DNA of 64,000 bases. It comes from Flammeovirgaceae bacterium. GTDB lineage: Bacteria; Bacteroidota; Bacteroidia; Cytophagales; Cyclobacteriaceae. The notes under the pieces are model-generated. The model saw only the letters and a list, made by a program, of their open reading frames with translations. It had not been told where the DNA came from and did not search any database. The stretch is from contig JAJTEH010000001.1 of assembly GCA_021298355.1 (NCBI GenBank), forward strand, positions 124,001 to 188,000, read 5' to 3'. Both the position numbers and the translations under genes were made by a program. Positions 37,904 to 45,746 of the stretch are shown here, in pieces (position 1 is the stretch's first letter; every line of letters begins with the position of its first letter).

Positions 37904-37946
37904 CAAAGTAAAGAAAACGCTTTTTATTTTTAATACAACACTTTTT

Positions 37947-37974
37947 AGTCGTAGCCCAGTGCTACGACTTTTTT
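37947..37974 (+). terminator. Intrinsic terminator after ilvE (first repeat copy)
   Basis: Perfect 9-bp stem AGTCGTAGC / GCTACGACT (37947-37955 and 37961-37969), loop CCAGT, then a T-run. A copy with one loop change lies at 39405-39432. Confidence 0.85.
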
Positions 37975-38083
37975 ATTTTAACCAAACACGTTCATGAGAT
38001 AAATAAAATTTGAAAAAAATTGGGATGAACTAAATGTTATGATAATCGAATTTCTTTCTACATATCAGAAAAAACCATCGCTC

Positions 38084-38091
38084 TACTTTTG
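38084..38091 (+). promoter_or_regulatory. -7 box of the first tandem lipoprotein gene
   Basis: TACTTTTG fits TAnnTTTG exactly, 20 bases before the ATG. No clear -33 TTTG at the usual spacing. The same box is in the second repeat copy at 39542. Confidence 0.5.
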
Positions 38092-38111
38092 TACGCATAA
38101 AACCATTTGGT

Positions 38112-39371
38112 ATGAGTATCAGAGTAATTTTGTTTTTAACAATCCTCATCAGCACATTGTCCTGTAGTAATGATGATGCTGTTTGTACGCCTCCTGCCGG
38201 AACCATAAGTGCAGAAACCATCGCGCAGCAAAAACTTCCACCGGCTACAGTAGCCATAAAAGGAAGTGAACATGCAAATTTTATCGGTTCGTGGAGTTTG
38301 GTAAATGGAAATGGAGGAAGTTTTGCCAACGCCAAACAATCCGAAACTACATTTACAGGCACACCCGGCCAGGCCTATACGCTACGTTGGTCATTAAGCG
38401 GATGCAATCTATTTTATAAGGATATAGAAGTAACCATTGGCTGTCCAACTCTGCAAGCCAATGCCGGAGTTGATCAACAAAATACACTTACCACGTACAC
38501 ACTAAATGGCAACGTACAGGAAGGAGCCACCGGAATGTGGACAATTGTGAGCGGCACAGGCGGGCAATTTGCCAACGCAACCAACCACAACACAAATTTT
38601 ACAGGCACAGCCGGAACAACCTACACATTACGATGGACACTAACCAACGCTTGCGGCCAAACACAATTTGATGAGGTGATTGTATCGATAGTTTTACCTC
38701 AAACAAAATTCAGAATTTCAAAAGTTATTACTCCGGAATTTGATGTAGAAATCGCGTATGTGTATAAAAATGGTAAACTCGATAAAGAAGTAAGAAAGTT
38801 TTCAGGGCAAACAATTGAAACATCTTTTGAATATTCACCTACAGGACAATTAGTTAAAATTCTTCATCCGCAGGTAACAGTTATTTATACTTACCTAAAC
38901 GAAGTAGTAGAAAAAAGCGAAACGTTTTTAACAAATGGAAGTTTGCTATTTACCACTACATTTACCTATACGAATAACATGATTACATCATCCATTACCG
39001 ATTATGTAGATGCCCAACCAGATATAAAATCTACCTATACCTATGGCACATCTAGCGAATTACTTCTTGTAAAAAATGAACAGCTAAACAACCCCTCTAT
39101 TTTTACAACATTTACCCGCTCGTATTACACTGAAACCGCACTAGTTAAAAGACCCTATACTGAATTCGGTCCTAAACTTCCCGAGAACTTTTCTAATTTG
39201 TTAATTAAAAGTTATGATTATGTAGATACGTCCAATCCAAACACCAACAATTCCATTCAATACACATACGAGTTCGATCAATTAGGAAGAGTAAGTAAAT
39301 TAATTGCGAAATATCCATTAAAACCTGAAAATAATTATACTGAGATTTTGGTATACGAAATAGCTAATTAA
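38112..39371 (+). CDS. Tandem lipoprotein 1 (PKD-like head, YD-like tail)
   Basis: A 419-residue exported lipoprotein: signal LFLTILISTLSC with the lipid-anchored Cys at residue 18. Residues ~25-193 are two beta-sandwich repeats of similar sequence (GSWSLVNGNGGSFANA and GMWTIVSGTGGQFANA, each followed by TFTGTPGQAYTLRWSLSG-like text), as in PKD/Ig-like surface domains. Residues 194-419 are strand-rich with YD/RHS-like phrases (FEYSPTGQLVKI, YTYEFDQLGRVSKL). No known ligand. The head is almost identical to that of the next gene while the tail has diverged. Confidence 0.8.
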   Translation: MSIRVILFLTILISTLSCSNDDAVCTPPAGTISAETIAQQKLPPATVAIKGSEHANFIGSWSLVNGNGGSFANAKQSETTFTGTPGQAYTLRWSLSGCNLFYKDIEVTIGCPTLQANAGVDQQNTLTTYTLNGNVQEGATGMWTIVSGTGGQFANATNHNTNFTGTAGTTYTLRWTLTNACGQTQFDEVIVSIVLPQTKFRISKVITPEFDVEIAYVYKNGKLDKEVRKFSGQTIETSFEYSPTGQLVKILHPQVTVIYTYLNEVVEKSETFLTNGSLLFTTTFTYTNNMITSSITDYVDAQPDIKSTYTYGTSSELLLVKNEQLNNPSIFTTFTRSYYTETALVKRPYTEFGPKLPENFSNLLIKSYDYVDTSNPNTNNSIQYTYEFDQLGRVSKLIAKYPLKPENNYTEILVYEIAN

Positions 39372-39404
39372 AAACTTTAATCAATATCATATACTATTTC
39401 AATT

Positions 39405-39432
39405 AGTCGTAGCCCAGCGCTACGACTTTTTT
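39405..39432 (+). terminator. Intrinsic terminator between the tandem lipoproteins
   Basis: Stem AGTCGTAGC / GCTACGACT (39405-39413 and 39419-39427), loop CCAGC, then a T-run; copy 2 of the ilvE terminator, so each lipoprotein gene is insulated from the gene before it. Confidence 0.85.
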
Positions 39433-39541
39433 ATTTTAACCAAACACGTTCATGAGATAAACAAAATTTGAAAAAAAATGGGATGAACTAAATGTTATGA
39501 TAATCGAATTTCTTTCTACATATCAGAAAAAACCATCGCTC

Positions 39542-39549
39542 TACTTTTG
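39542..39549 (+). promoter_or_regulatory. -7 box of the second tandem lipoprotein gene
   Basis: TACTTTTG, 20 bases before the ATG at 39570, in the repeat copy of the leader. Confidence 0.5.
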
Positions 39550-39569
39550 TACGCATAAAACCATTTGTT

Positions 39570-40817
39570 ATGAGTATCAGAGTAATTTTGTTTTTAACAA
39601 TCCTCATCAGCACATTGTCCTGTAGTAATGATGATGCTGTTTGTACGCCTCCTGCCGGAACCATAAGTGCAGAAACCATTGCGCAACAAAATCTTCCACC
39701 GGCTACAGTAGCCATAAAAGGAAGTGAACATGCAAATTTTACCGGTTCGTGGAGTTTGGTAAAAGGAAATGGAGGAAGTTTTGCCAACGCTAAACAATCC
39801 GAAACTACATTTACTGGCACACCCGGCCAGGCCTATACGCTACGTTGGTCATTAAGCGGATGCAATCTATTTTATAAGGATATAGAAGTAACCATAGGCT
39901 GCCCAACTCTGCAAGCGAATGCCGGATTTGATCAACAAAATACACTTACCACCTACACACTAAATGGCAACGTACAGGAAGGAGCCACCGGAATGTGGAC
40001 AATCGTGAGCGGCACAGGCGGGCAATTTGCCAACGCAACCAACCACAACACAAATTTTACAGGCACAGCCGGAACAACCTATACATTGCGATGGACACTA
40101 ACCAACGCATGCGGCCAAACACAATTTGATGAGGTAATTGTTTCTATCCTGTTAAAGTATCGTATAAAAAAGATTGAAAGCGCAGACGGAACCAGCAGTA
40201 CTACATTTGAATACAAAAACGGAAAACTCAGTAAAGTAATAAACGAATACAATGGAGATAAAACAGAATTACTCTATGAATACGCATCTAATGGTCAACT
40301 TTCAAAAGTTAGCAATTGGTTATTCGAATTTATTTTTACCTATTCAGGCAATACATTAGTTAAAGATGAACAATTTTCTATATCAAGCGGTAAAGTTTTA
40401 AGCAATACACAAACGTATACATATACGAACGATAAAATTTCTTCTTATATAATTGATTATGCAAGCGTTGGTTCTAACGATTTAAAAAACCTTTACACGT
40501 ACGGTGCAAATAATGAATTAACGAAATCATCTTTAGAATTTGTAAACAACCCTGGAGTAGAAATTGTAACCCGAACCTATACGTACTATAACCAAATTAA
40601 CTTAGTAAAACACCCCGCTGAGGAAGTAGACCCAAGGTTGGTTGGTAGATACTCTAATCTTTTAATAAAAAGTATGGACATTGAAGGCTTAAATTTTGCT
40701 GACGAACAATACACCTATGAATTCGATCAATTAGGCAGAATCAATAAAAAAACCACAACCTTTTTACCTTCCGGAAGTACTTTTGTTGAGATATACACGT
40801 ACGAAATATCAAACTAA
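39570..40817 (+). CDS. Tandem lipoprotein 2 (paralogue of the preceding gene)
   Basis: A 415-residue lipoprotein with the same signal and lipobox as its neighbour and four differences in the first 193 residues (Lys to Asn, Ile to Thr, Asn to Lys, Val to Phe). Residues 194-415 are homologous but strongly diverged, keeping short anchors such as SNLLIKS and YTYEFDQLGR. It has its own copy of the promoter and leader. The likeliest history is whole-gene duplication followed by gene conversion of the first half or fast change of the second half. Function unknown; a surface-binding role is only inference. Confidence 0.8.
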   Translation: MSIRVILFLTILISTLSCSNDDAVCTPPAGTISAETIAQQNLPPATVAIKGSEHANFTGSWSLVKGNGGSFANAKQSETTFTGTPGQAYTLRWSLSGCNLFYKDIEVTIGCPTLQANAGFDQQNTLTTYTLNGNVQEGATGMWTIVSGTGGQFANATNHNTNFTGTAGTTYTLRWTLTNACGQTQFDEVIVSILLKYRIKKIESADGTSSTTFEYKNGKLSKVINEYNGDKTELLYEYASNGQLSKVSNWLFEFIFTYSGNTLVKDEQFSISSGKVLSNTQTYTYTNDKISSYIIDYASVGSNDLKNLYTYGANNELTKSSLEFVNNPGVEIVTRTYTYYNQINLVKHPAEEVDPRLVGRYSNLLIKSMDIEGLNFADEQYTYEFDQLGRINKKTTTFLPSGSTFVEIYTYEISN

Positions 40818-41001
40818 AAAGAGTTGTAAACAAGAACAATAGCATGTTACGATGAGTGTTTTTTTAGCTCAACTGTTTTTATCGATAAGTAAATTAAACT
40901 ATAGCACATACATAAAAACGGTTAGACCGAAACAGCATAAGCTTTGTAGAAAAAAAATAGTAGGTTATGGTTAGTAAAATTCGAACATTAAAGTTTACCA
41001 T

Positions 41002-41008
41002 TACTTTG
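41002..41008 (+). promoter_or_regulatory. Possible -7 box for the DoxX gene
   Basis: TACTTTG, one base shorter than TAnnTTTG, lies 65 bases before the ATG. Weak evidence. The rest of the 40818-41073 gap shows no gene or RNA that I can recognise. Confidence 0.25.
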
Positions 41009-41073
41009 CAACGGAACTTTTATGCGTAAAAACCAGTTTCTGAAAAACAGAGTATAAACCTAACCCCTTTACT

Positions 41074-41454
41074 ATGAAACAGAAAATAACAAACGTTTTA
41101 AACTGGCTAATGGCAGCTATGTTTTTAAATGCAGGTCTCAATAAAATATTTAACTACATACCACCACCGCCCGACTTGCCCGAAGCAATGGTAAAAGATT
41201 TTGCTGCCTTTATAGAAATAGAATGGCTTTTTCCACTTGTAGCTGTTACGGAAATAGTGGGAGCTTTTTTAATTATTCTAAAACAAACACGACCATTGGG
41301 CACTCTTGTTTTGTTTCCGGTTGTTATCGGAATTGCTTTAGTACATTTTATCGTTGAGCCAAGTGGCATTATAATTTCAATTATACTATTGGCACTTATA
41401 GGTTGGAATTTGTGGATGGATAAAAACAAGTTTCTGTCTTTAGTAAAAGCCTAA
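41074..41454 (+). CDS. DoxX family membrane protein
   Basis: A 126-residue inner-membrane protein with four hydrophobic segments. VLNWLMAAMFLNAGLNKIFN is the typical DoxX opening, LFPLVAVTEIVGAFLIIL the second segment and PLGTLVLFPVVIGIALVHFI the third. Relatives act as accessory subunits of quinone or thiol redox systems; the role here is unknown. It stands alone and is closed by a terminator. Confidence 0.82.
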   Translation: MKQKITNVLNWLMAAMFLNAGLNKIFNYIPPPPDLPEAMVKDFAAFIEIEWLFPLVAVTEIVGAFLIILKQTRPLGTLVLFPVVIGIALVHFIVEPSGIIISIILLALIGWNLWMDKNKFLSLVKA

Positions 41455-41473
41455 AATTGATTGAACTCAAGGT

Positions 41474-41501
41474 AGCTCGCTGTTTACAGCGAGCTTTTTT
41501 T
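41474..41501 (+). terminator. Intrinsic terminator after the DoxX gene
   Basis: Perfect 9-bp stem AGCTCGCTG / CAGCGAGCT (41474-41482 and 41487-41495), loop TTTA, followed by Ts to 41501. Confidence 0.9.
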
Positions 41502-41804
41502 GTTGAATGAAATGCGCCTAGTAATCAAAATTCTTTTCATATATTTTAATTCCTTACGCAGTAAGATTCTTAAATCCTGAAATATAAAATCGAAATTAAA
41601 AAACTCAGTGAATAACTTTTTTAATACCTGAAATTCTAACGTAAAAGTTCTTGTTTAACAAAAGGAGTAAAAAGCGTAAGTATACTTCAACCATTTACAG
41701 AAAACATATCGAAGAAGAATAACTTTTAAAAGATCGGATTGGTAGGTTAACGCTAAAGGAAATACAAAACCAAATTAAACGTGTTAAAAGTCTCTCTTTT
41801 CAAT
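41502..41804. other. Noncoding stretch before prfB
   Basis: About 300 AT-rich bases with no open frame of useful size, no tRNA-like clover and no strong hairpin that I can see. It may include a long leader for prfB or decayed sequence; nothing decides. Confidence 0.5.
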
Positions 41805-41812
41805 ATATTTGC
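41805..41812 (+). promoter_or_regulatory. -7 box for prfB
   Basis: TATATTTG matches TAnnTTTG exactly and ends 16 bases before the prfB ATG. The -33 element is not clear. Confidence 0.45.
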
Positions 41813-41828
41813 ATCATATCTACCCTAC

Positions 41829-42930
41829 ATGACAACCGAGCAACTCAAAGACCTTAAAGCCCGCGTAGTGGCGTTAAGGCGCTATCTTTGACTACGACCG
41901 TAAAAAAATTGAAGTTCAGGATTTCGACCTGATAACCCAACAATCCGATTTCTGGAATAACCCCAAACAAGCCGAACTCACGCTAAAAAATATGCGTGGC
42001 CTAAAAGTCTGGACGGATGCTTTCGAATCAGTGTCAAAAAAAATAGAAGACCTTGAGGTTCTAAATGAATTTCATGATGCTGGAGAAGTAACAGACGAAG
42101 AACTCGAAAAAGAGTACAAACAAACTGCACAAGCGATAGAAGATCTAGAATTTAAGAAAATGCTGAGTAAAGAAGAAGATCAGCTATCTGCAATTCTTGA
42201 AATTAACCCAGGAGCAGGAGGAACAGAAAGTAACGATTGGGCTGATATGCTCAACCGGATGTACATTATGTGGGGAGAAAAAAATGGTTTTCAGGTTAAA
42301 CAATTAGATTATCAGCCAGGCGAAGTAGCGGGATTGAAATCATCGACATTAGAATTAGAAGGACCGTTCGCATACGGTAAATTGAAATCAGAAATTGGAG
42401 TTCATCGTTTAGTGCGTATTTCTCCATTCGACTCCAATGGCCGCAGACATACATCATTCGCATCGGTTTTCGTTTATCCTAAAGTAGACGATTCGGTTGA
42501 GATTGAAATTAATCCTGGAGACATTGAGTTGCACACCTCACGTTCAGGTGGTGCTGGCGGACAAAATGTAAACAAGGTAGAAACCAAAGTACAATTAACC
42601 CATAAGCCAACTGGAATTGTTGTTGTATGCCAGGTAGAGCGTTCTCAACATGCTAACCGCGAAAGAGCTATGCAAATGTTGAAGTCGCGCCTTTATCAAA
42701 TGGAGATGGAAAAGCGAAATGCAGAGAGAGATAAAGTAGAGGCGGGAAAAATGAAAATAGATTTTGGTTCGCAAATAAGAAATTATGTTTTGCATCCTTA
42801 TAAATTGGTAAAAGATGCCAGAACTGGAGTAGAGCGTACCGATGCACAAAATGTTTTAGATGGAGATTTAGATGATTATATAAAAGCATTTTTATTAGAA
42901 GCTCAAGAACAAGAAAACAAGTCGGCCTAA
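41829..42930 (+). CDS. prfB: Peptide chain release factor 2 with programmed +1 frameshift
   Basis: Ends translation at UGA and UAA. The ATG at 41829 opens a 20-codon frame ([20 protein letters not shown]) that stops at TGA 41889-41891 in the context TATCTTTGACTACGAC, the classical autoregulatory slip site. After a +1 shift from CTT the frame goes on at GAC (41890) to the stop at 42930, giving 366 residues, the normal RF2 length. An AAGG a few bases before the slip codon may act as the internal Shine-Dalgarno. The SPF codon-reading motif ([15 protein letters not shown]) and GGQ motif ([15 protein letters not shown]) are intact. Without the shift, only 312 residues from an internal ATG at 41992 would be called. 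Confidence 0.96.
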
Positions 42931-42933
42931 TAC

Positions 42934-44571
42934 ATGAAAAAGGCACAACCTATATTGTTTGTTTTATGTTTCGCATTTAGAATTGTGCAAGCCCAAACTG
43001 TGCAGGAAAGTATTTTGATAGACTCCGAAACTAAGCGTGCGGTACCCTATGCCTCAATAGGAATAGTAGGCACAGCAAAAGGCACAAGTTCAAATCTGGA
43101 TGGACAATTTTCGTTACCAATTCCTGTAGGGGCAAGTATTCGTATTTCTTGTTTAGGATACAAAACAATTGATGTAGCCGAACCCATTCCGAAAGTTATC
43201 TACCTAAGCCCTGTGATTACTCAATTGCAAGAAATAATTGTTACTAACAAAAAAGTAAATGCGGCTGGTGTTGTATCCAAAGCCTTTCGATCTTTAAAAG
43301 ATAACTGCCTTCAACAATCATTTAATCAAACTTTTTTTTATCGCCACTATTGTAAAGACAACGAAATATATGGCAGGTTAATTGAAGCATCGGTTGATGT
43401 GTATAAACCCAATGGGTACAAAACAGTACGATCTAAACCAGGAGAAAATGAATCGATACGAGTAAACCAACTAAGACGCAGTTTCGATAAAACTATATTT
43501 GCTATGGGCCATGTACCTATTGCCATCAATAGTATTTTAGAAAGTGATGTAACGGCATATAGAACCAAACAACCTATAGGGAAAGTAGATTTTTTTAGTG
43601 AAGTAAATGCTACCAAGGCCGATTTTAGTTTGTACACTTTTACGTTAGCAGGTATAACCGTGCAAGATAATGAAGAGGTATATGTAATAGAATTTCAATC
43701 GGTTATCGATTCAGTCCGAACGACAACCGGTAGGTATGTTTACTTACCACAAGCCAAAGGAAAATTTTTTATTACAATAAACTCCCTTGCTTTTGTTAAA
43801 ACTGAAGTTGAAAAAGTATGGGGTACAGATACAACCGTAACCAATACGTACTATAAAAAATACGATGGATATTTTTATCCCTATCATATAACCAGAACAG
43901 GCAAAACATATATGCGCGATGGATCCACTCATTTTTTTACCATCGAATTTGTATCTACAGATATAGAAACAAAAAAACCTGAACCCTTTGAAGGCAAAGA
44001 ACCTGGTCGTTTTCAACTCTTATCTATTCCATACGATTCTTCCTATTGGAATACAATGCCATTGTTAAAAACTACTCCTCTGGAAGATAGAATTATTGCC
44101 GATCTTGGAGGAGGAAAATCATTAGCTCAACAATTCTATATATATCAGCGTGAACAAATACAGAAGATAGAAGAAGGTAAGAATGGAGATGAAGGATTTA
44201 CGTGGTTGGTAAGTGAAGATTTTAAGAAGCCAAAATTTGTTGCATTCTGGAGAAGCGAATGCCAGATTTGTATTGAAGAGATTAACTCAATTTTGCAATC
44301 AACGAAAGAAGAATTTTATCTTGTTTCAGTTTCTTTAGATCGAGATTCTGCCAATTGGAGTAAAGCCATGAAGAAACTCAATTGGAAAAATACTGAAAAC
44401 ATCAAACATATTTGGTTAGGAAATTTCTCAGTTATGCTGGATGAACTAAACGTAAAAGAATTACCCAGATATACATGGTATGATAAACGCGGCAAGCTGG
44501 TAGTGAAACAGGCAGCAAAACCAACAACAATGGCCTGGCGTAATCAGATAAACAAATTAATTAACGAGTGA
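42934..44571 (+). CDS. Exported CarboxypepD_reg-like protein with C-terminal thioredoxin-like domain
   Basis: A 545-residue protein with a signal peptide ending near FRIVQAQ. Residues ~22-105 form a carboxypeptidase regulatory-like (CarboxypepD_reg) domain: VPYASIGIVGTAKGTSSNLD and ISCLGYKTIDV. The middle ~300 residues resemble the unknown beta-rich part found in many Bacteroidota proteins of this type. The last ~130 residues look thioredoxin-like: PKFVAFWRSECQICIEEI with a CxxC pair (CQIC), then LVSVSLDRDSANW and ELPRYTWYDKRGKLV, as in TlpA/ResA proteins. A redox role in the periplasm is likely but not proven. It starts 3 bases after prfB and overlaps the MFS gene by 4. Confidence 0.78.
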   Translation: MKKAQPILFVLCFAFRIVQAQTVQESILIDSETKRAVPYASIGIVGTAKGTSSNLDGQFSLPIPVGASIRISCLGYKTIDVAEPIPKVIYLSPVITQLQEIIVTNKKVNAAGVVSKAFRSLKDNCLQQSFNQTFFYRHYCKDNEIYGRLIEASVDVYKPNGYKTVRSKPGENESIRVNQLRRSFDKTIFAMGHVPIAINSILESDVTAYRTKQPIGKVDFFSEVNATKADFSLYTFTLAGITVQDNEEVYVIEFQSVIDSVRTTTGRYVYLPQAKGKFFITINSLAFVKTEVEKVWGTDTTVTNTYYKKYDGYFYPYHITRTGKTYMRDGSTHFFTIEFVSTDIETKKPEPFEGKEPGRFQLLSIPYDSSYWNTMPLLKTTPLEDRIIADLGGGKSLAQQFYIYQREQIQKIEEGKNGDEGFTWLVSEDFKKPKFVAFWRSECQICIEEINSILQSTKEEFYLVSVSLDRDSANWSKAMKKLNWKNTENIKHIWLGNFSVMLDELNVKELPRYTWYDKRGKLVVKQAAKPTTMAWRNQINKLINE

Positions 44572-45746
44572 ATACACCTAGTAAAGTATATAACCTTCAG
44601 TTCTGGCTGGTTTGTTTAAGTTCTCTGTTGTTCTTCTCTAGTTTCAACATGATGATTCCTGAGTTATCCGGATATTTAACTTCATTAGGAGGCGAAGAGT
44701 ATAAAGGACTGATCATTTCCTTGTTTACATTAACTGCGCTTATTTCGCGCCCATTTAGTGGAAAGCTAGCGGATACTATTGGCAGAGTTCCCATTATGTT
44801 TTTTGGAACAGCAGTATGCATCGTTTGTAGTTTTCTTTATCCTGTATTAGCCAGTGTTTCCGGGTTTTTATTTTTACGTTTGATTCACGGTTTTTCTACC
44901 GGGTTTACGCCAACAGGCCTAACCGCTTATTTATCGGATGTAATTCCGGCTGAAAAAAGGGGCGAAGCTATGGGCATATTAGGAACGGCCGGCTCTATTG
45001 GTATGGCCGCAGGGCCAGCCATAGGTGGTGAAATAGCCAATCAATTTTCTTTAGATGCACTCTTTTATGCTTCTTCTATTTTTGCTACTGCATCTGTAGC
45101 TATTTTGTTTAACGTAAGAGAAACACTTCAAACAAAAAAGAATTTTACACTAGCGGCTTTAAAACTCGAAAAGTACGATTTACTGGAACCAAGAGTTATC
45201 ATCCCGTGTATTATTATGCTTTTAGCATGTTATGCGTATGGTGCCATCTTTACTGTATTGCCCGACTTTGGTTTATACATTGGAATTGAAAACAAAGGTG
45301 TGCCATTTACTTTTTTAACGATTGCATCACTAGCGGTAAGGCTTATAGCAGGAAAGTTATCAGATAAAATCGGGCGAGTGGCTGTATTACGATTATCCAC
45401 TTTTTTAATCGTAACCGGAATGCTGATTATAGCATTCGCTAACAGTGCCTTTATGGCATTAGCTGGTATAACAATTTATGGAATGGCACAAGGTATGACG
45501 TCTCCCACATTATTTGCCTGGGCAACAGATTTAAGTTTAAATCAGTTTAAAGGTAGAGGCATTGCAAGTCTATATATTTTCATGGAAGCAGGTATTGGAA
45601 TTGGTGCACTTGCATCTGGTTTTATTTACGGAAATAAAAGCACAAACTTTCTCTATACCTTTATTATCTGTGCTTTAATAGCTTTGGTGGCATTTCTATA
45701 TCTTACATTTTTCTTTCGCAAAACTCATTTACCAAAACCGGAATAA
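44568..45746 (+). CDS. MFS transporter
   Basis: A 392-residue, 12-segment drug/metabolite exporter-like carrier. MFS motif A appears twice in its usual places: SRPFSGKLADTIGRVPIM after segment 2 and AGKLSDKIGRVAVLR after segment 8. Motif C-like AGPAIGGEIANQF is present in segment 5. The GTG start at 44568 overlaps the previous stop in GTGA, so translation is coupled. Substrate unknown. Confidence 0.9.
   Translation: MNTPSKVYNLQFWLVCLSSLLFFSSFNMMIPELSGYLTSLGGEEYKGLIISLFTLTALISRPFSGKLADTIGRVPIMFFGTAVCIVCSFLYPVLASVSGFLFLRLIHGFSTGFTPTGLTAYLSDVIPAEKRGEAMGILGTAGSIGMAAGPAIGGEIANQFSLDALFYASSIFATASVAILFNVRETLQTKKNFTLAALKLEKYDLLEPRVIIPCIIMLLACYAYGAIFTVLPDFGLYIGIENKGVPFTFLTIASLAVRLIAGKLSDKIGRVAVLRLSTFLIVTGMLIIAFANSAFMALAGITIYGMAQGMTSPTLFAWATDLSLNQFKGRGIASLYIFMEAGIGIGALASGFIYGNKSTNFLYTFIICALIALVAFLYLTFFFRKTHLPKPE

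Follow-up and report, generated by a model that had tools for sequence, protein, structure and literature searches.

Recombination has probably homogenised the 5′ half of two tandem genes for predicted surface lipoproteins in a member of the Flammeovirgaceae

Two adjacent genes of a Flammeovirgaceae bacterium, termed A and B, share a nearly identical first half together with the DNA upstream of it, while their second halves are strongly diverged homologues. They are located on the plus strand (A, 38112-39371, 419 aa; B, 39570-40817, 415 aa) of the window, i.e. the whole stretch of 64,000 nucleotides that was analysed. The pair probably goes back to an old tandem duplication, whose copies would later have recombined with each other and so become alike again in their 5′ half. 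We infer conversion as the process from the block of near-identity, its borders and the contrasts seen at silent sites and towards an outgroup. Both products are predicted to be lipoproteins exposed on the cell surface, in which two PKD-like domains would form a stalk between a lipid anchor and an RHS/YD-like beta-barrel at the tip. The features of the pair are compiled in Table 1.

Table 1. Features of the tandem gene pair; positions are those of the window.
Feature	Position	Strand	Remarks
Terminator-like hairpin, copy 1	37945-37979	+	stem 37947-37969, T run; -13.2 kcal/mol, z -6.1; left border of shared block, 3′ of aminotransferase-like gene
Shared leader and presumed promoter, gene A	37980-38111	+	promoter function presumed from sequence
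Gene A head	38112-38690	+	lipoprotein signal peptide (LSC/SNDD), two PKD-like domains
Gene A tail	38691-39371	+	RHS/YD-like all-beta domain; 41% identity to B tail
Terminator-like hairpin, copy 2	39403-39437	+	stem 39405-39427; -13.7 kcal/mol, z -6.0
Shared leader and presumed promoter, gene B	39438-39569	+	promoter function presumed
Gene B head	39570-40148	+	PF22352 match 29.1 bits, cut-off 27
Gene B tail	40149-40817	+	predicted beta-barrel like Bacteroides 'porin-like' 4ghb and 3tzg
Probable right border of homogenised tract	A 38652-38678; B 40110-40136	none	placed by silent-change pattern

Results

The shared block

The copies at 37947-38690 and 39405-40148 (offset 1458) agree at 720 of 744 positions (96.8%) and align with no gap. 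At the same offset, 298 other 744-bp windows, with starts near the shared block left out, gave a mean identity of 26.6% and a maximum of 32.9%. The repeat was the only direct-repeat family reported in the whole window (exact seeds of 16, length of at least 40). Four differences lie in the upstream 165 bases including the hairpin. The head, codons 1-193, carries 16 synonymous and four amino acid changes (K41N, I58T, N65K and V120F), corresponding to a dS of 0.128, a dN of 0.009 and a pS of 0.118. The original prediction had described terminator, leader and 193 codons as gapless with four residue changes counted by eye, and exactly these four were obtained by alignment. A graded divergence along the block was considered and dropped, as 13 of the 24 differences lie in its last 288 bases (p 0.14) and only a cluster in the last five codons was significant.

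The block contains 24 differences in all, and no identical stretch in it exceeds 111 bases, so the homogenising event is not brand new. The same figures bear on a possible assembly artefact, in which a mixed population would have contributed two variants of a locus that were then joined in tandem. The assembly is indeed split into 82 contigs; still, differences spaced in this way are normally resolvable by paired short reads, and on both sides of the pair homology resumes to the aminotransferase-like and DoxX-like genes of a genome of the same genus (G002, see below). An artefact is thus considered highly unlikely.

Borders of the block

The hairpin marks the left side, where identity sets in at 37945; in 37904-37944, only 13 of 41 bases match. 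The gene upstream of the first hairpin copy is, as we take it from its sequence, a branched-chain aminotransferase-like gene. A hairpin of this sequence is located 5′ of A and 5′ of B and is absent 3′ of B, which fits a duplicated unit reaching from the terminator to just past the stop codon of the first gene. The left border then falls together with an end of the repeated unit, and it may be no more than the place where the duplication stopped. A dispersed repeat or mobile terminator was rejected, as the stem pattern occurred without mismatch at these two sites only when the source genome was searched. With two mismatches and a different core it was found at three other places in the genome, compared to one for a reversed control pattern.

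The right border is located within the genes. A and B differ by 12 silent changes in codons 1-188 and by four in codons 189-193, and silent sites are saturated beyond. Thus, four of the last five head codons differ silently with their residues kept (scan-corrected p 0.0004). This tail-like silent change places the DNA border near 38652-38678, while the last shared residues were probably kept by selection (DEVIVSI in A and B, DEVTIQI in G002). Kept residues together with changed silent sites allow recombination to be told apart from selection at this point. The claim of sharp borders at a terminator stem and in mid-gene therefore holds for the stem and for the step as such, but the step does not lie quite at the Ile of DEVIVSI, where it had been placed.

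Head-versus-tail contrast

Over 218 aligned codons (12 gap columns), 89 residues of the two tails are identical (41%), and they are related yet strongly changed, as had been proposed. Their silent sites are saturated (pS 0.762), with a pN of 0.393 and a dN of 0.557. At columns with the same residue in A and B, Met and Trp left out, the codon differed in 16 of 183 cases in the head and in 42 of 89 in the tail (Fisher 2e-12). Equal silent divergence of head and tail, which would have argued for a simple old duplication, was checked for in this base-by-base count of synonymous and non-synonymous changes and the opposite was found, namely nearly identical heads and silent-saturated tails. Fast diversification of the second half, offered originally as one of two explanations, gains no particular support from these values, as the tails look like ordinary old divergence.

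Comparison with the single-copy relative

The sole full-length relative found is a single-copy gene for 406 amino acids in G002. It has the same head and tail architecture, so the fusion of head and tail was not made by the A/B pair. The heads of A and B each share 110 of 193 residues with it, and the tails 41 of 200 (A) and 52 of 203 (B). Among head codons for the same residue, 67 of 105 (A) and 64 of 105 (B) differ from G002, and silent sites are saturated (pS 0.775 and 0.762 for the two paralogues). Hence, silent sites of the head are free to change. The dN to G002 was 0.381 for the head of both paralogues and 1.125 (A) and 0.886 (B) for the tail. Expressed as a share of these distances, the dN between A and B amounts to approx. 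2% in the head and 50-63% in the tail, where similar shares would be expected after an undisturbed duplication. A and B are closer to each other than either is to G002, at silent sites too.

The tail is the faster-evolving half also in comparison with G002. Since the head evolves more slowly there as well, the contrast of head and tail at the protein level is partly ordinary. A simple old duplication, after which purifying selection alone conserved head and promoter, would agree with this better conservation of the head (110/193 compared to 41/200 for A). However, silent sites and upstream DNA are near-identical between A and B too, and the G002 head differs from that of A at the 67 same-residue codons given above. 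Selection as the only cause was rejected on silent sites and upstream DNA and appears extremely improbable.

Upstream of the gene, the best match between the pair and G002 was one 12-base stretch, TCTACTTTTGTA (E 0.008); the rest was short and at chance level. It is located at 38082-38093 in the leader of gene A and is present upstream of the single-copy relative too. TCTACTTTTGTA resembles the Bacteroidota -7 motif, TAnnTTTG, and judged by its sequence it may be a promoter element.

The head GC3 was 0.383 in A, 0.373 in B and 0.281 in G002, and codon changes counted at same-residue columns lean mildly to G/C (28 compared to 19 for A, 27 compared to 17 for B). GC-biased conversion is not claimed on this basis.

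Distribution and genomic neighbourhood

The pair is located on a 333-kb contig of the source genome (97.29% complete, 82 contigs). A full-length gene was found in two of five genomes of the genus, at different places. In the source genome it sits between aminotransferase-like and DoxX-like genes and in G002 between uvrA-like and lpd-like genes, all neighbour names being readings of the sequences. The region behind lpd in the source genome and the aminotransferase-DoxX interval in G002 hold other genes. The flanks of the interval from the aminotransferase-like to the prfB-like gene (37904-41991) lie close together on one contig in all five genus genomes, and the genes inside differ.

No third copy of the tail was found in the source genome, where at E 0.01 the B tail had no match other than B and A. 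For A, this genome gave nine further matches at E 10, and all of them end by residue 197, i.e. in the head. Phage, partner or antigen variation, which the original prediction had brought up, finds no support here. A programmed system of this kind, in which alternative tails are switched behind a fixed anchoring head, would share with the Borrelia Erp proteins (PMC10016077) a conserved anchor and upstream DNA with a variable tip. However, the tails of A and B are homologous and not unrelated, both frames are intact with an upstream copy each, and no further tail copy turned up among the sequences of this 97%-complete genome, which leaves switching without support. It is regarded as very unlikely. 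A cassette reservoir of tails was likewise looked for in the source genome and none was found.

In wider comparisons, relatives were detected mostly through the head. A query of the length of gene A gave matches in 14 of 59 relative genomes at E 1e-5, and among the matches listed all but A, B and the G002 gene end by residue 218 of 419, in the PKD-like head. A three-row profile matched 21 of 390 genomes of the order at E 1e-15 with at most four candidates scored per genome, in all but the source genome through the head. The B tail matched eight of 390 family genomes at E 0.01 including the source genome, the other seven weakly (E 0.0017-0.0093). Two of these seven loci (L046 and L050) both look like stand-alone lipoproteins. 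The YD-like stand-alone lipoprotein of L046:1309-2250 adjoins an MFS transporter resembling that at 44568-45746 of the window; partial synteny and chance are both possible.

When contigs of a wider set of genomes were scanned with B alone, no relative was found. The three-row alignment gave 19 loci, one of which (L103) was taken as the G002 gene. In the remaining 18, which include L108 and L114, two further loci that were inspected, it is mainly the PKD-like head that is matched, and three matches reach further (L112, residues 25-250; L113, 41-223; L115, 115-304). The matches in L112, L113, L115 and L118 lie in open frames of 1399, 1329, 2066 and 713 aa, three of which run off the locus, and these are therefore not genes of the size of A and B. 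A locus with many PKD-like repeats was noted in the source genome itself (G000:C66:303201-305496; L003-L005, L007-L011). An in-frame TAG lies within two of the matches there and the open frames are not the same, so that the large gene at this locus may be broken.

Predicted proteins

The signal of both proteins is of the lipoprotein type and ends in LSC, followed by SNDD. Surface export signals of Bacteroidetes include polar-then-acidic sequences such as SDDDD and SDDFE, as described in PMC5080379. C-S-N-D-D resembles these without an exact match and does not correspond to the K-(D/E)2 or Q-A-(D/E)2 of C. canimorsus. The two PKD-like domains of the head share 41% identity over 66 residues, and the second was above the Pfam cut-off for PF22352 in both proteins (29.8 bits for A and 29.1 for B, cut-off 27).

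The structure model of the whole protein A, the less confident of two models, had a pLDDT of 72.7 and a pTM of 0.45, with 4ghb as best Foldseek match. For the B tail, a five-row alignment led to an all-beta model (pLDDT 83.1, pTM 0.76) that superimposed on 4ghb with Z 15.3 (rmsd 3.4, 203 aligned) and on 3tzg with Z 14.3 (rmsd 3.9, 200 aligned), followed by the next row with Z 9.9. The B tail is accordingly predicted, from the model, to share the Bacteroides porin-like fold over the whole domain. Rhs cores and teneurins ranked high in Foldseek too. RHS_repeat (PF05593) matched all five tail sequences at E up to 10, with a best E of 0.00065, and the B tail was below its cut-off (12.4 bits compared to 22). 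Weak matches were also obtained with NCBIfam (E 0.026 and 0.1), with PF05047 of Pfam (E 0.2 and 0.029) and with PDB sequences (E 0.31 and 1.3); all of these were put down to chance. The tip would have a binding role.

Discussion

Origin of the pair

The proposed course starts with a tandem duplication that would be old enough for the tails to reach 41% identity. Homologous recombination between the copies, either by gene conversion or by an unequal crossing-over within the head, would then have copied the terminator, leader, anchor and stalk of one gene onto the other, and it would stop where the tails are too diverged to pair. The cell would thus retain a single common module for export and expression, combined with two different tips. 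Gene conversion of the first half, or an equivalent recombination, had been the other original explanation, and it is supported by silent sites, non-coding DNA and the comparison with the relative.

The main rival, though an unlikely one, is the opposite course: a recent tandem duplication, after which one tail, together with its 3′ end, would have been exchanged by recombination for that of a diverged allele or of a paralogue from another strain. The left border lies at the end of the repeated unit as this would have it, and exchange of DNA is plausible at a site where species of the genus differ in their gene content. However, no donor tail was found, with two tails in the genome and the weak matches in seven others of the 390 family genomes, G002 has the same combination of head and tail, and even so the head would have to supply homology for a break near 38652-38678. 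Recombination in the head is thus needed by homogenisation and by replacement of a tail. Since the searches gave a single relative that carries both halves, an overwritten head, compared to a replaced tail, is the more probable direction rather than a certain one.

Comparison with known systems

Conversion between paralogous genes of bacteria has been well described, and outer membrane protein genes are stated in PMC6053082 to be frequent among the short-term cases. The concerted evolution of prokaryotic paralogues treated there resembles the present case in that the paralogues are closer to each other than to the relative, at silent sites too; in contrast, A and B are homogenised in the 5′ half and the upstream DNA only and not in the 3′ half. 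Allelic exchange and gene conversion are discussed in PMC5266723 as ways in which surface proteins of Porphyromonas gingivalis diversify.

The Erp lipoproteins of Borrelia have a shared promoter and leader and diverged outer parts, according to PMC10016077. Common to both are the shared promoter, leader and sorting segment and recombination in the history of the family. The external parts of the Erp proteins are said there to have many independent origins and are found on cp32 replicons. Unlike these, A and B are two adjacent copies on a 333-kb contig with homologous tails (89/218 identical).

Among solved structures, the Bacteroides 'porin-like' proteins BACUNI_01323 (4ghb) and BVU_2266 (3tzg) are alike to the B tail in predicted fold over about 200 residues. 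In A and B, unlike in these two, the barrel is part of a fusion with a PKD-like stalk and a lipid anchor, and sequence identity is 12-14%. We take DUF4595 to be the family label of 4ghb and 3tzg; a literature search for the Bacteroides porin-like family returned nothing on it. RHS/YD repeat proteins differ from the A and B tails in that each tail is one small domain and no long repeat array, the B tail being below the Pfam cut-off.

Lipoproteins from a different bacterial family of the order (L061-L063 and L078) are similar in lipobox, PKD-like domains and the presence of a C-terminal module, but this module, presumably FISUMP-like, is unrelated to the tails of A and B. A SusD-like gene was located upstream in the four loci read (L078:610-2052 and L061-L063).

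Significance

A wider reading would be that the shared head is a standing recombination anchor, by which a lineage of Cyclobacteriaceae collects and exchanges RHS/porin-like tips between strains at a variable site. We regard this as rather improbable; if true, exchange via the head would be a chromosomal counterpart of the Erp scheme. The pair itself appears to be a clear instance of an evolutionary process that is already known, and no new class of system. With it, an uncharacterised lipoprotein family is tied to a solved Bacteroides fold that was deposited without a named function. It would represent a natural example in which recombination homogenises the half for expression and anchoring and the outer half is free to differ, with a border between them that can be mapped.
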